Source: Actinopolyspora lacussalsi
GTDB taxonomy: Bacteria; Actinomycetota; Actinomycetes; Mycobacteriales; Pseudonocardiaceae
Direction of reading: 5' to 3'
NCBI GenBank assembly: GCA_030803735.1
Contig: JAURUC010000001.1
Location: 2,931,501 to 2,995,500 of the forward strand
Length of the DNA: 64,000 nucleotides
The notes below the pieces were generated by a model. That model was not told the origin of the DNA and did not search any database. It saw only the letters and a program-made list of their open reading frames with translations. The position numbers and the translations under genes are program-made. Below are positions 6,640 to 64,000 of this stretch, piece after piece (positions within the stretch are counted from its first letter, which is position 1; each line of letters starts with the position of its first letter).

Positions 6640-6664
6640 GGCGTCGATTTCTCGCGAAATCGCC
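6640..6664 (+). repeat. Short palindrome, ATTTC-N4-GAAAT family, copy 1
   Basis: Arms CGATTTC and GAAATCG flank the tetraloop TCGC, extended by GGCGT on the left and CC on the right. It lies 25 bp after the CHAT stop, in a convergent intergenic region. The same element occurs five more times in the window, always between convergent genes. Confidence 0.8.
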
Positions 6665-33248: not shown

Positions 33249-33321
<73 letters not shown>

Positions 33322-33531
33322 CCGCGATCGGTCGTCCCGACCACATCGGTACACCCTACGTCCCGACCGACACCGCACCGTGAGCGGGTCCGGCACGATC
33401 GACCCGTGCGGGCTTCCCGAGTACGAGAGTGTACGACATCACCGAAGTGGATTTCCAACCCCGTCCCCGAATCCGACATCCTCGGTGGGCACGGTTCGTA
33501 CGACGCGACACGCGTCTGCGACGATGCGGAC

Positions 33532-34767
33532 ATGGCCGCACCCGGAACACAGGCAAGCTCGACCACCGAATCCCGCGTCTCGGCCCGAGTCGGCGCGATC
33601 GCCGAATCGGCCACCCTGGCCGTGGACGCGAAGGCCAAAGCACTCAAGGCCGAGGGACGCCCGGTCATCGGATTCGGCGCCGGTGAACCGGACTTCCCCA
33701 CCCCGGAACCGATCGTGCGCGCGGCGACGGAGGCGTGCTCCGAGCCGCGCAACCACCGCTACAGCCCGGCGTCGGGACTGCCCGAACTGCGTGAGGCGAT
33801 CGTCACCAAGACCGCACGCGACTCGAACCACGTGATCCAGCCGAACCAGGTGCTGGTGACCAACGGCGGCAAGCAGGCCGTGTACCAGACGTTCGCCACC
33901 CTGCTCGATCCCGGCGACGAGGTGCTGCTCCCCGCGCCGTACTGGACCACCTACCCGGAGGCCATCAGGCTGGCGGGCGGGGTCCCCGTCGAGGTCCCCA
34001 CGGACGAGTCGACCGGTTACCTCGCGACGCTGGAGCAGCTGGAAGCCGCTCGCACCCCGCGCACCAGGATGCTGCTGTTCAACTCGCCCTCCAACCCGAC
34101 CGGGGCGATCTACCCGCCCGAGCGGGTCGCCGAGATCGGCCGGTGGGCGGTGGAGCACGATCTCTGGGTCGTCACCGACGAGATCTACGAACACCTGGTC
34201 TACGGCGACGCCAGGCACGTCTCCATGCCGGTGGAGGTGCCGGAGCTGGCCGACAGGTGCGTGGTGCTCAACGGGGTCGCCAAGACCTACGCGATGACCG
34301 GCTGGCGCGTCGGGTGGATGATCGGCCCGACCGACGTGATCAAGGCCGCGACCAACCTGCAGTCCCACCTGACGTCCAATGTGTCCAACGTCTCGCAGCG
34401 GGCCGCGCTGCAGGCCGTGAGCGGACCGCTGGACGCGGTGGCCGAGATGCGCGAGGCATTCGATCGGCGCAGGCGCACCATAGTGGAGATGCTCGGTTCG
34501 ATCCCCGGTGTGAGCTGTCCGGAGCCGAAGGGCGCGTTCTACGCCTACCCGTCCGTCAAGGAACTGCTCGGCAAGGAGATACGCGGAGTCCGGCCGCGGA
34601 CCAGCACCGAACTCGCCGAGCTCGTCCTGGAGCAGGCCGAGGTGGCCGTGGTGCCGGGCGAGGCGTTCGGAACGCCCGGCTACTTCCGGATGTCCTACGC
34701 GCTCGGCGACGAGGATCTCGCCGAGGGTGTCCGCCGGATGACCGCCCTCCTCTCCGAAGCCAAGTGA
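33532..34767 (+). CDS. aspC: PLP-dependent aspartate-type aminotransferase
   Basis: 411 residues, fold type I, subgroup Ib. Visible are [34 protein letters not shown], the PLP lysine in [16 protein letters not shown], and the substrate-binding Arg in GYFRMSYAL. It probably interconverts aspartate/2-oxoglutarate and oxaloacetate/glutamate; related substrates cannot be excluded. The residue before the PLP lysine is Ala rather than the usual Ser. The start has no strong ribosome binding site. It sits between tRNA-Trp and hadB, interrupting the mycobacterial order. Confidence 0.88.
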
Positions 34768-34808: not shown

Positions 34809-34911
34809 GGCGGAACCTCTGGCACGGCTCTCGCTGCGGGGAGGCCCGACATCGGGTAGCGACCTACACAACGTCGGGCCTTCCTCGCGAGAGCCGCACC
34901 GGAGAACCCGC
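34809..34911 (-). repeat. Family 1 palindromic element, copy A
   Basis: A 103-bp imperfect palindrome read on the minus strand: outer arms GTGCGGCTCTCGC / GCGAGAGCCGTGC, inner arms GGCCCGAC / GTCGGGCC, and apical stem-loop GTAGGTCGCTAC (34856-34867). It lies in the convergent aspC-hadB gap. Copies B and C keep the fold with compensatory changes. Confidence 0.85.
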
Positions 34912-34992
34912 GGCGGCGCCGATTGCGTAAGTGGTGGGAGCTCGGCCCGCGGGAGTGGTGGGAGGGTGGCTGATCGTCGGCTCTGTTGGCCC

Positions 34993-35015
34993 GGCGATTT
35001 CGTGGGAAATTGACG
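34993..35015 (-). repeat. Short palindrome, copy 2
   Basis: Read on the minus strand: AATTTC, loop CCAC, GAAATCGCC. It lies between the family 1 and family 2 elements in the aspC-hadB gap. Confidence 0.75.
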
Positions 35016-35042
35016 GAGCCCGGGCCCGCCCGCTGCTCGGGG

Positions 35043-35066
35043 GTGTCAATTTCTCGCGAAATCGCC
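35043..35066 (+). repeat. Short palindrome, copy 3
   Basis: GTGTCAATTTC, loop TCGC, GAAATCGCC. It lies 27 bp from copy 2 in opposite orientation, making an inverted pair. Confidence 0.75.
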
Positions 35067-35123
35067 GCCCCCGAAGACCCCCATCGGGAAGCGAGCACGA
35101 GCGACGCCGCGCGGGTGTCCCCG

Positions 35124-35218
35124 GTGCGTGAGTCGGATGCATTGCAAGGCCGGGCCGCTCGCCGCGTAGGTCGCTACTCAAGAGCCGGCCCAACGAAGCA
35201 AGGCGCCGACTCACGTGC
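35124..35218 (+). repeat. Family 2 palindromic element, copy A
   Basis: 95 bp bounded by GTGCGTGAGTCGG and CCGACTCACGTGC, with inner arms GGGCCGCTC / GAGCCGGCCC and the apex GTAGGTCGCTAC (35166-35177). That apical 12-mer is identical to family 1 copy A. Copy B at 62501-62595 differs at only four positions. Confidence 0.88.
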
Positions 35219-35247
35219 CGGCTAACCGACCACCGCGCCAGAGCGGG

Positions 35248-41600: not shown

Positions 41601-41701
41601 GCGGGTTCTCCCGTGCGGCTCTCGCGAGGACGCCGGAGACGTTGTGTAGTACCTACCCGATGTCTCCGGCCCGCAGCGAGAGCCGTGCGAGAGGTTCCGC
41701 C
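41601..41701 (+). repeat. Family 1 palindromic element, copy B
   Basis: 101 bp. Outer arms GTGCGGCTCTCGC / GCGAGAGCCGTGC, inner arms CCGGAGAC / GTCTCCGG (changed on both sides relative to copy A), apex GTAG-TAC-CTAC (41646-41656). It lies between the convergent PPOX gene and the 88-residue protein gene. Confidence 0.88.
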
Positions 41702-41847
41702 ACAGCACCACCCACGAAAGATGAGAGGACGACCCACGCAAGGCGTCCCGCGCTCAACCGGCCTGGGGGTCACCGGGAGCGCGGGACGCGTAATCGACAC
41801 TACTGATCGGCCGCAGCTGCTGTCGAGTCACCGATGGGCCGGGTCAC

Positions 41848-58446: not shown

Positions 58447-58471
58447 GGCGTCAATTTCTCGCGAAATCGCC
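58447..58471 (+). repeat. Short palindrome, copy 4
   Basis: GGCGTCAATTTC, loop TCGC, GAAATCGCC, 37 bp after the rfbA stop. Confidence 0.8.
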
Positions 58472-58497
58472 GCTCCAGTGCGGCGTCATGGCCCGTA

Positions 58498-58522
58498 GGC
58501 GTCGATTTCCCACGAAATCGCC
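58498..58522 (+). repeat. Short palindrome, copy 5
   Basis: GGCGTCGATTTC, loop CCAC, GAAATCGCC, 26 bp after copy 4 in the same orientation. Confidence 0.8.
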
Positions 58523-58573
58523 GCGCCGCTACGACGCGGTGCCGCTCCCGCCACCCACGCAGCCCGGCCATCC

Positions 58574-58675
58574 GCGGGTTCTCCGGTGCGGCTCTCGCGA
58601 GGACGGTCCCGACGTTGTGTGGTAACCACCCGATGTCGGGGCACCCGCAGCGAGAGCCGCACGAGAGGTTCCGCC
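58574..58675 (+). repeat. Family 1 palindromic element, copy C
   Basis: 102 bp. Outer arms GTGCGGCTCTCGC / GCGAGAGCCGCAC (13 perfect pairs), inner CCCGAC / GTCGGG, apex GTGG-TAA-CCAC (58619-58629) where both sides of the apical stem changed relative to GTAG/CTAC. Between convergent rfbA and htpX. Confidence 0.9.
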
Positions 58676-58713: not shown

Positions 58714-59589
58714 TCAGTAACGAGTGGGTAGCTGGCGCCCTGCCAGACCCTCCAACCGTCGAACCCTGTCGGAGATGGGCGGGTGGGTCGAGAACAACCG
58801 TGTCATCCGTTCCCCGGCGCGGAACGGGTTGGCGATCATCAGGTGGGACTCGCTGACCAGCTTCGGCTCGGCCGCGAGCGGGGCCTGCTTGGTCCCCCGT
58901 TCGAGTTTGCGCAGTGCCGATGCCAGGGCCAATGGATCTCCCGTCAGCTCGGCTCCCGATGAATCCGCCTGGTACTCGCGGGAGCGGCTCACGGCCATCT
59001 GGACCACGGCTGCCGCCACCGGCCCGAGCAGCGATACCAGCAGCAGCGCGATCAGATTGGGGCGTTCCTCGTCGTCCCCGCCGAAGCTCGCGAAGATCAG
59101 CCCGAAGTTCGCGATGAAGGTGACCGCACTGGCCAGCGCGCCCGCGACGCTGGAGATCAGGATGTCGCGGTTGTAGACGTGGGAGAGCTCGTGCCCCAGC
59201 ACGGCGCGTAGTTCCCGCTCGTCGAGCAGCTCCAGGATCCCGGCGGTGGCACAGACGGCCGCGTTGCGGGGGTTGCGCCCCGTCGCGAACGCGTTGGGCG
59301 CCACGGTGGGACTGATGTAGAGCGCGGGCATCGGCTGCTTCGCGGATGTGGCGAGTTCACGCACGATGCGGTACATCGCGGGCTGCTCCGCCTCGGAAAC
59401 CGGCCGAGCACGCATCGACCGCAACGCGAGGTTGGCCGAGTTGAAGTACGCGTAGCCGTTCATTCCGAGCGCGATCAGCAGTGCCACGACCATGCCGGAC
59501 CGCCCGAACAGCGACCCGAGCAACACGATGAGTGCGCTCATGGCACCGAGCAAGAGCGCCGTTTTTACTCCGTTCCAATGCCTGTGCAA
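58714..59589 (-). CDS. htpX: Membrane-bound zinc protease HtpX
   Basis: 291 residues from TTG 59589 ([15 protein letters not shown] aligns with mycobacterial HtpX starts; GGGAG four bases upstream). Membrane helices lie at about 10-28, 32-52, 145-165 and 175-200. The zinc site is HELSH with the downstream Glu in [23 protein letters not shown] is conserved. It degrades misfolded membrane proteins. A candidate ECF promoter lies 130 bp upstream. Confidence 0.96.
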
Positions 59590-59718
59590 GGTACTCCCGC
59601 CTCCGCCCGGTTTCCGGACCAGTTTCCGGGGACCGGCCACCTTCGACGGTGACCGGGAACCACGCACGGTGAGCGGCGATTCACGCCGGCCGGGCGCCCC
59701 GTGAAGAACTCACTCGGA

Positions 59719-62017: not shown

Positions 62018-62458
62018 ATGGACCCCCTGGATCAACGAATCGTTTCGCAACTGGTCACCGACGCCAGGGCCAGTTACGCGGAGATCGGCGAGGCGGTGGG
62101 ACTCTCCGCTCCCGCCGTGAAACGACGTGTGGACAAACTGCTGGACAACGGCGTGCTGCAGGGCTTCACCGCCGTGGTCGACCCGGAAGCGCTCGGCTGG
62201 GGGACCGAGGCCTTCGTGGAAGTGCACTGCCACGGCAACGTGCCCACCGATCGACTGCTCGCGGGGCTGGAACCGCTGCCGGAGGTGGTTCGCGCCTACA
62301 CCGTCTCGGGGGAGGCGGACGCGATCGTGCACCTGCGTGCGGCCGACATCCACCATCTCGAAACCGCGCTGGAGCGGCTGCGTGCGGTCGAGTTCATCAA
62401 TCGGACCGTTTCCACCGTCGTGCTGTCCCGGTTACTCGACAGACCACCCCAGGCATGA
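62018..62458 (+). CDS. Lrp/AsnC-family transcriptional regulator
   Basis: 146 residues from ATG 62018 (ATG 62009 also in frame). The N-terminal helix-turn-helix (SYAEIGEAVGLSAPAVKRRV) and C-terminal RAM ligand domain (FVEVHCHGNVP, VVRAYTVSGEADAIVHLRA) are complete. It is divergent from the arginine deiminase-like gene and probably senses an amino acid to control it. Confidence 0.93.
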   Translation: MDPLDQRIVSQLVTDARASYAEIGEAVGLSAPAVKRRVDKLLDNGVLQGFTAVVDPEALGWGTEAFVEVHCHGNVPTDRLLAGLEPLPEVVRAYTVSGEADAIVHLRAADIHHLETALERLRAVEFINRTVSTVVLSRLLDRPPQA

Positions 62459-62500
62459 TGAGGGGCAGTGTCGAGACTTGCGTGCCTGGTCGGGTAGCCG

Positions 62501-62595
62501 TCACGTGAGTCGGCGCCTTGCTGTGTTGGGCCGGCTCTTGAGTAGCGACCTACGCGGCGAGCGGCCCGGCCTCGCAATGCATCCGACTCACGCAC
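62501..62595 (-). repeat. Family 2 palindromic element, copy B
   Basis: 95 bp, inverted relative to copy A and 91 of 95 bases identical. The apex GTAGGTCGCTAC is at 62553-62542 on the minus strand. Between the Lrp gene and the convergent edge gene. Confidence 0.9.
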
Positions 62596-62720
62596 CGGGG
62601 TTCCCACGCTGCTTATCCGAATGGTCGCGTCCCGACGGTGCCGACTGCGAGGGCGGTCGGAGCGCGGCCTGCGGGGGTGGCTGGAGTGCGGCTTCGCCCG
62701 GTGGCCTTTCCCGGCGGCGC

Positions 62721-62745
62721 GGCGATTTCGCGCGAAATCGACACC
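62721..62745 (-). repeat. Short palindrome, copy 6
   Basis: Read on the minus strand: GGTGTCGATTTC, loop GCGC, GAAATCGCC. It lies in the same convergent gap as family 2 copy B. Confidence 0.78.
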
Positions 62746-62776
62746 GCACGGGCCACTCAGACGCCGCATGGGCCGC

Positions 62777-64000
62777 TCAGGAGCGCGAGCGGCCGTCCCA
62801 GGCGACGAAACCGGCCTGCTCGGCGTCCGCCGGACCGCGGAACCACACCTCCGCGACCACCCGATCGAAGTAGGGCGAATCGGCGGTGTGGTACTGCCGC
62901 GAGCCGAACTGCCCCTTGACCGTGTAGCTCTCGTCCGGCCTCGGTTGTTCCGGATACTTCTCGTCGGGGTACCACTCCTGCCGTTCGTTCCCGGCATCGG
63001 TGTCGGACTCGCCTGCCGTCGCGTCCGAGGACCTTCCCGGGGCCTGGTCACCGAGGACGTTTCCGCTCAGCACGGAGTGGGCACTGGTGGCGGAGCCACC
63101 GCGCCGGGTGTTGGCCCCCGGAACTCTTCTGGGAAGCCCTTCTGGGGTCTCGTCTACACCCGCGGCACCACCCGGCGCGGAGTCGGTGGGCCCGGCGGGA
63201 GTGGTCCCACCCGTGGTTTCCTCGGGATCCGGGGCGGAACCCGCACCGTCGGTCACCGGCGAGGACGAGCTGTCAGGCAGTTCGGCACCGCTGCGGTCGG
63301 GGTCGATGCCGGGCGTCACCATCGGCTCGAACAGCGAACGCAGCCTGCCGGTGAGTTCCCCCTCGGAGGACTCGCCGGAGCGCTCCCCCACCTGCTCACC
63401 GACTGCCGTCCCCTGGTGCTGCTCGCCCGGTTCCGAACCCGAACCGGGACGTTCGGAACCGCCGAACTCTCGCGTGGTCTCCGAGGCGACGTTGTCGGTG
63501 TCGTACATGTCGAACTCCGCGGCCGAGAACCACGTGCGGTCCCCGGCGGAACCGGAGAGTTCCGCACCGGAGCTCACCTCGGCGGGTGCGGTGGGCGTAG
63601 CGGACCACTCGGCGCCGCCCGGCGCGGGGGCCGACTCGGGGGGCTGTCTGCGCGGGTGTTCCTCGCGCAGCTCGCGTTCCCGCTCCAGTCGCAGCTCGGA
63701 CTCGTCGAAGGAGGCGGTGTCGGCGCCGTGCGGTCTCTCCTGGACGGGCTCCCACTCGTCCGTCGGGGAGGTACGCGCGCCTTCCGGCCCGGGCGCGGCC
63801 GCGAAGACGGACCCGCCGAAGTCCTCGGAGGCGGCCTCCATCCAGCGCGCGCGCTGGCTCCCCAACGGCCGGGGCACGTGCTCGGTCGGCCATTCGGCGG
63901 CGCCCGATCCGGAGGGGGTGGTCGCGTCCGAGCCCTCGGGGCGATGCGCGGCGGCTTCGGTGCCGGATTCCGGGACACGGTCGTGCGGCGTCCCGTTCTC
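62777..64000 (-). CDS. Large acidic protein with C-terminal sunset-type motif (3' part)
   Basis: The frame is open from the right edge, so about 407 C-terminal residues are seen. Most is Ser/Gly/Glu/Pro-rich low complexity with MEAASEDFGGS and EGLPRRVPGAN. The last 60 residues read ESYTVKGQFGSRQYHTADSP then YFDRVVAEVWFRGPADAEQAGF, the actinobacterial sunset-type motif (YHxxxSPYY...AEVWF...AEAAGF). GLPRRVP also occurs in the CvnA tail of this window. The N-terminal domains lie outside, so function cannot be assigned. Confidence 0.75.
   Translation of the reverse strand, partial: ENGTPHDRVPESGTEAAAHRPEGSDATTPSGSGAAEWPTEHVPRPLGSQRARWMEAASEDFGGSVFAAAPGPEGARTSPTDEWEPVQERPHGADTASFDESELRLERERELREEHPRRQPPESAPAPGGAEWSATPTAPAEVSSGAELSGSAGDRTWFSAAEFDMYDTDNVASETTREFGGSERPGSGSEPGEQHQGTAVGEQVGERSGESSEGELTGRLRSLFEPMVTPGIDPDRSGAELPDSSSSPVTDGAGSAPDPEETTGGTTPAGPTDSAPGGAAGVDETPEGLPRRVPGANTRRGGSATSAHSVLSGNVLGDQAPGRSSDATAGESDTDAGNERQEWYPDEKYPEQPRPDESYTVKGQFGSRQYHTADSPYFDRVVAEVWFRGPADAEQAGFVAWDGRSRS

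Follow-up and report, generated by a model that had tools for sequence, protein, structure and literature searches.

The 102-bp hairpin at positions 58574..58675 (plus strand; copy C below) very probably represents the conserved core of a family of MITE-type, non-autonomous DNA transposons, one that belongs to the actinomycete family of its host. The window, i.e., the whole stretch of DNA analysed, comprises 64,000 nucleotides (2,931,501-2,995,500) within a single 5,028,440-base contig of the Actinopolyspora chromosome, and a protein encoded in it finds its nearest relatives within Actinopolyspora, at 99% identity in A. righensis and A. alba. The original prediction described three copies of the hairpin, which are all present at the places and on the strands given and align as described: copy A at 34809..34911 (minus strand, 114.1 bits with the covariance model), copy B at 41601..41701 (plus strand, 115.7 bits), and copy C (120.9 bits). 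The inner stems (CCCGAC/GTCGGG in copy C), the apical stem (GTAG/CTAC in copies A and B versus GTGG/CCAC in copy C), and the outer arm, whose GTGC/GTGC ends pair through wobbles in copies A and B and as Watson-Crick pairs in copy C, are also as described. The length of 102 bp holds for the conserved core, which is about 100 bp with CGGGTTCTC and GAGGTTCCG at its ends, but not for the full element, which is longer in relatives. What had been missed is that the hairpin belongs to a mobile element whose ends and target sequence can be recognised in relatives, and that it stands at a near-fixed distance from a stop codon.

In the window, copy A lies 41 bp from the stop codon of a class I/II aminotransferase gene (33307..34767, plus strand) and copy C 38 bp from that of a peptidase M48 gene (58714..59667, minus strand), while for copy B the codon-usage gene calls gave no near-side stop codon within 60 nt. 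A short repeat unit accompanies all three copies: twice, as TTGCGTAAGTGGT and CCGCGGGAGTGGT, in the flank of copy A (34923..34959, plus strand), twice beside copy B (41707..41741, minus strand), and once beside copy C (58550..58562, minus strand). The three copies are real, but they are not the only such hairpins in the window, which also holds two weaker matches to a second family of similar fold. One of these, at 35121..35232 on the plus strand (30.0 bits, E 3.4e-5; homologous loci were folded), faces copy A within the same convergent intergenic region; the other is at 62487..62598 on the minus strand (25.0 bits, E 5.7e-4). The second family has a similar three-tier layout with a GTAG/CTAC apex, and 30 pattern matches in this genome. 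A third dispersed element consists of 16-bp palindromes of the GATTTCGCGCGAAATC type, found in the window at 6646, 34996, 35048, 58453, 58504, and 62724 and often sharing intergenic regions with the hairpin elements: two palindromes of the GATTTC..GAAATC type lie between copy A and the second-family member (34996..35063), and two lie upstream of copy C (58453..58519).

On the strand as first described, copies A, B, and C fold with energies of -77.3, -73.9, and -74.0 kcal/mol (z -8.17, -8.79, and -7.96), with none of 200 shuffles as good; the opposite strand folds less well (-69.5, -61.2, and -59.0 kcal/mol). Pair covariation, as in a structured RNA, is found in both alignments made. In the first, with 28 sequences (15 rows from the same genome and 13 from others) and the structure set by hand, 20 of 40 pairs are changed on both sides, giving 69 such cells against 15.5 in shuffles, and the covariation score is 0.229 against 0.083, a level reached by none of 500 shuffles. 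Model R2, built from this alignment, then served to align a second set, of 46 matches (44 of them distinct) that span at least five genera. In this set, which leans towards the structure because it was fitted to the model and shares some sequences with those that built it, 27 of 39 pairs have two-sided changes, with 251 cells against 74.0 in shuffles and a score of 0.419 against 0.111 (0/500 shuffles); pairing is 93.3% and drops to 41-49% if the partners are slid by 1-3 columns. None of the 500 shuffles reaches any of the five measures, so the proposed selection on a folded form is borne out, as is the covariation that more sequences were expected to bring.

The mispairs are one-sided, with G-T against A-C pairs at 141:14 in the first set and 172:13 in the second, and the strand first described is therefore the folding strand. 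Near the base of the hairpin, two G-T pairs, present in 44/44 and 43/44 sequences, flank a U-U mismatch that is kept in at least 95%. Conservation is concentrated in CGGGTTCTC, GCGAGGAC, a CCC across the internal loop, and GAGGTTCCGC; the unpaired blocks that are conserved lie around GCGAGGAC and in the facing CCCGnAG. The inner hairpin, by comparison, can be replaced outright, for example at locus L244. What is conserved in the core of about 100 nt is a fold on one strand, in which the stems covary, wobble pairs are invariant, and certain unpaired blocks are retained. Replication of long palindromes readily gives rise to template-switching, and such switching, by copying one arm onto the other, could create paired changes in the absence of any selection; the near-perfect arms of many copies would agree with this. 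Template-switching would, however, also repair wobbles and mismatches, and the persistence of the two G-T pairs and of the U-U mismatch, together with unpaired blocks conserved across genera, led us to reject this origin as most improbable.

No family named in Rfam accounts for the element, and to that extent the original prediction holds. A search of Rfam over the window at the gathering threshold returned five matches, all tRNA, and a relaxed search (E ≤ 1) with four related loci returned one tRNA and a sub-threshold MIR1219 match (25.7 of 79 bits); a known Rfam family was rejected on the grounds that no match reached the gathering cut-off. A description of the element was likewise not found in the titles and abstract openings of the literature searched.

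Many more copies exist in the genome, as had been anticipated. A 26-base pattern of the 5' arm, allowing up to three mismatches, has 113 matches against none for the reversed control, and a covariance model made from 30 copies finds 132 copies in the 5.03-Mb chromosome at E ≤ 0.01 (the E-values being rough), which excludes chance. All 132 were studied with at least 1 kb on either side. The same 26-base pattern occurs at 51, 48, 99, 108, 55, 1, 103, and 71 places in eight other genomes of the genus, and beyond the genus in one of 52 genomes, at five places. Model R2 at E ≤ 0.001 matches at least 78 of 297 genomes carrying the family label, in 15 of 46 genera, in a search that scored at most 13 candidates per genome under strict filters, so that counts saturate. 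That label covers this genome as well as the others and is presumably GTDB's Pseudonocardiaceae; in the NCBI taxonomy, Actinopolyspora falls in Actinopolysporaceae, and Saccharopolyspora in Pseudonocardiaceae. In a class-wide sample, again strictly filtered and with at most 10 candidates per genome, 2 of 394 genomes matched, both within the family (one being this genome) and none outside it. In Halopolyspora algeriensis and Saccharopolyspora soli, copies occupy the copy A site or lie close to it, and four other named loci outside Actinopolyspora (L147, L150, L163, and L166) gave nothing above 21.3 bits.

The evidence for mobility comes from relatives, above all from two genomes of one related genus, G248 and G307. 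In G307, three recent copies match one another for 51-62 bases leftward of the hairpin and for 38-39 bases rightward before they diverge; they are flanked by CTAG on both sides in two cases and by CTAG and TTAG in the third. The whole element in these two genomes is about 200 bp long and has short terminal inverted repeats, with the ends CTAG-GACGTGTTTTATAAG and CTTTCGAAACAGGCC-CTAG. Whole-flank alignment with MAFFT proved misleading beyond the hairpin. The right end was recognised by pattern in 26 of 30 loci, and of these 26 copies 12 have identical flanking 4-mers, mostly CTAG, and 17 have the left CTAG. Seven of the 26 are without the hairpin. As some copies end in CTAG on both sides although they have no hairpin, mobility probably does not depend on it, unless the hairpin was deleted once the copy had inserted. 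The inverted-repeat search, extended over 36 related loci, gave clear ends only for G248 and G307, the sole other match being a 12-base inverted match in locus L262 of genome G021.

One copy, at locus L270, lies inside an open reading frame. When its flanks are joined through a single CTAG, the open frame lengthens from the 82 codons found to 253, and its product has matches to helix-turn-helix families that extend across the join (HTH_20, 46.1 bits against a cut-off of 27). Another frame is also open across the join (782 codons against 538 as found), so openness alone proves little and it is the family match that counts. The copy appears to split a regulator-like gene, and this in-gene insertion supports duplication of the target. 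We consider mobility in the relatives to be well supported.

A candidate for the mobilising enzyme is present in the same genome. Six loci of one insertion sequence in G307 start with CTAG-GGGTCTGTTTCAGAAG or nearly so, five of them with a right end, AAACAGGCC-CTAG, about 0.92 kb on, and its DDE transposase belongs to the IS5 family (NF033580, 131.7 bits against a cut-off of 110). The ends of the insertion sequence and of the MITE are alike but not identical, and the two have nothing else in common. Given the similar ends and the same CTAG target, the elements would be moved in trans by an IS5-family enzyme, presumably in G307 by this transposase. A transposase gene carried next to the hairpin was rejected: in an all-against-all comparison of open reading frames from related loci, those of the 40 most recurrent frames whose positions were checked cover or adjoin the element. 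Separately, at locus L293 in G248, an IS5-family insertion lies inside an element of this kind, adjoining the conserved CTGAG of the 3' arm.

In the Actinopolyspora genome itself, terminal repeats were not apparent by eye among the copy flanks inspected, and a 156-residue piece of the G307 transposase has no relative at E ≤ 1e-20, while all eight genus relatives searched have between one and seven at the same threshold. Mobility in this genome may be assumed by homology; as to target duplication, what is seen here is an excess of TAG and CTAG stop codons. The copies in this genome would be old, with decayed ends, and many of them inherited in place.

The position of the hairpin relative to genes is regular, as judged with gene calls from a simple codon-usage script rather than a published gene finder, both here and for the related loci. 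The near-side gene converges on the 3' end of the hairpin in 107 of 132 copies, and 94 of the 132 lie 25-50 nt from the neighbouring stop codon and antisense to that gene, the commonest distance being 36. By class, convergent genes flank 63 copies and divergent genes 8, and the copies flanked by co-directional genes number 44 in one orientation and 17 in the other; the skew of 44:17 is against having the folding strand within mRNA. Among the related loci (37 of the 41 numbered L229-L269, after removal of three that duplicate a place and of a single short one; A. mortivallis supplies one of the 37), the near-side gene converges in 29, and the co-directional classes are 10 and 7, so that the skew is weak.

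Part of this regularity is consistent with the target. CTAG is rare in GC-rich genomes and is tolerated mostly at stop codons. Among the 95 near-side genes with a stop within 60 nt, the stop is TAG in 27 against 41 of 334 other genes (p 3.7e-4), and CTAG stands at the stop in 10 of 95 against 6 of 334. As most near-side stops are nevertheless TGA (64/95), CTAG targeting accounts only partly for the proximity to stop codons. In the mechanism that we favour, survivors would be left just past genes because CTAG or stop-like targets are tolerated there, which would put the 3' end of the hairpin at a near-constant distance from the stop of the neighbouring gene.

The same placement could also mean that the hairpin, spread anciently by transposition, is now a working part of the adjacent genes, maintained by the host as a 3'-end RNA element (transcription end, RNase III site, or mRNA stabiliser). 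Its position after stop codons, so often between convergent genes, speaks for this, as does the fold being kept where transposon ends are not found. Against it, T-tailed terminators are rare overall (22 of 372 gene ends scanned) and equally so with and without the element (5/93 versus 17/279), on which ground replacement of such terminators was rejected. None of the three window copies has a T-tract after the hairpin on either strand, i.e., the stem followed by T-tract of an intrinsic terminator is absent. By eye, a few copies follow a T-tailed terminator instead.

Comparison of orthologous sites also bears on host maintenance, and does so in both directions. Of 13 copies compared from the sister genome G127, which bears the same species label, 11 have a copy at the matching place in the Actinopolyspora genome, one has the second family instead, and one is without a compared counterpart; of seven compared from G004, three have a counterpart, one aligns over the hairpin but failed the anchor rule, and three are unplaced. 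This sample is biased, as the stretches compared surround copies of the Actinopolyspora genome. Where a site is shared with G127, 89 of 1157 hairpin columns differ, as do 132 of 475 and 67 of 445 columns of the 40-base flanks, in rough counts that include indels; further left, 342 of 997 columns differ, and the gene window differs at 283 of 2279, a figure raised by two misplaced windows. The lower divergence of the hairpin favours host maintenance, although the hairpins might also stay alike through gene conversion among copies. Of the 30 changed pairs in 13 ortholog pairs (one broken copy excluded), 2 are changed on both sides, 15 are changed on one side and still paired, and 13 are broken, and 25 further changes fall at unpaired positions, so that constraint after insertion is present but modest. 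Moreover, presence and orientation of the element at one site vary among species. Maintenance by the host as a 3'-end element is thus possible, though we rate it below an even chance.

Two sites may bear on the turnover. At 62380-63000 of the window the second family is present, and family 1 stands at the same place in G127 (locus L353); modules seem to have been swapped between gene 3' ends. In A. mzabensis the intergenic region of the copy A site (L141, 14468-14955) aligns better inverted (alignment score 260 versus 19.5 direct), which may reflect a clean inversion of the segment between the two stop codons or, just as well, an independent rebuilding from repeated modules; we do not claim an inversion.

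Conservation of one strand with its loops, in a hairpin that is probably dispensable for movement, suggests that the hairpin has a second role. We lean slightly towards RNA as its active form. The original prediction that the wobbles favour RNA stands as far as they are one-sided and the strand described is the one that folds; it does not amount to proof of RNA, as G-T pairs are also tolerated in single-stranded DNA. An active single-stranded DNA, serving as the site of a hairpin-recognising enzyme as in REP/RAYT or integron attC systems, would equally be strand-specific in its fold, and it could find support in the direction of the copies along the chromosome: 47 plus and 22 minus at 1.25-3.5 Mb versus 18 and 42 at 3.5-5.0 Mb (three copies fall elsewhere), with dnaA at 3.594 Mb. 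None of the 132 copies falls between 15 kb and 1.30 Mb, a copy-free quarter roughly opposite dnaA if the chromosome is circular. Gene direction and a younger region near the terminus could, however, explain both the strand bias and the copy-free stretch. (Second-family matches at 449,036 and 1,250,026 fall inside this stretch.) Furthermore, none of the four Y1-transposase matches (PF01797) in the genome is within 10 kb of a copy, model R1 has no match at E ≤ 1 in the four Y1 loci, and movement in the relatives leaves terminal inverted repeats and terminal CTAG, as with DDE enzymes. We therefore regard the single-stranded DNA reading as unlikely.

In the preferred mechanism a widespread host factor would bind the folding strand in the form of RNA, which is the least certain step. 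The bound RNA would act on transcription or RNA ends and would probably blunt transcription running toward the 3' end of the next gene, whereby insertions at gene 3' ends could be tolerated. The 44:17 skew, by which the folding strand is usually kept out of mRNA, fits with an RNA that is active if transcribed. The explanation as a whole, i.e., a transposon core, survival at gene 3' ends, and a strand-specific RNA, seems likely to us. A bolder version, which we offer as speculation and hold to be rather doubtful, is that of a mobile structured RNA whose internal loops are fixed, which is recognised by a host factor found in many related genera and travels as the cargo of successive IS5-type transposons, in effect a portable module for gene 3' ends.

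Many bacterial MITEs form hairpins. A core that covaries on one strand across genera, also in the absence of recognisable transposon ends, suggests that it is read by some component of the cell. The element links about 130 places, mostly gene ends, on one chromosome, and through it the idea that transposons deliver 3'-end RNA control in GC-rich actinomycetes becomes testable. If the bolder version is true, a mobile structured RNA kept by hosts after decay of the transposon ends would provide shared, genus-wide control at the 3' ends of more than 100 genes.

Several known systems resemble the element in part. Integron attC sites are covarying hairpins after a stop codon, with the folding strand antisense to the gene, and the element shares these features; unlike attC sites, its copies are dispersed singly, and no cassette array was seen. 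REP palindromes with GTAG or CGTC ends lie downstream of genes, mostly between convergent and co-directional open reading frames, and the GTAG ends often supply a TAG stop and the G-T pairs are taken to suggest a function as RNA (PMC3733652). The placement downstream of genes, the G-T pairs, and the TAG stops are all like the element, while REPs are 20-40 bp long (PMC3733652). A core of about 100 bp ending in CGGGTTCTC and GAGGTTCCG is not a 20-40 bp palindrome with terminal GTAG or CGTC, and membership in REP/RAYT was rejected as there is no Y1 gene near the copies and R1 is without a match at the four Y1 loci. ERIC/IRU, Correia/NEMIS, RUP, RPE, and YPAL, at about 100-200 bp and with transcripts predicted to form long stem-loops, are similar in size and shape as far as their description goes, and the portions of that account consulted do not mention fixed spacing from stop codons or conserved internal loops (PMC2229807).

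The closest likeness is to MITEs of the IS5 family. Like them, the element is small, has no gene that we could see, and, plainly so in G307 and G248, bears terminal inverted repeats, with a CTAG at either end; the identical flanking 4-mers of 12 of 26 copies and the in-gene insertion conform to target duplication, and the six loci in G307 supply, within one genome, the autonomous partner whose ends resemble those of the element. It differs in its conserved, covarying core of about 100 nt, which is not seen in the insertion sequence and which occurs also where the ends are not recognised.
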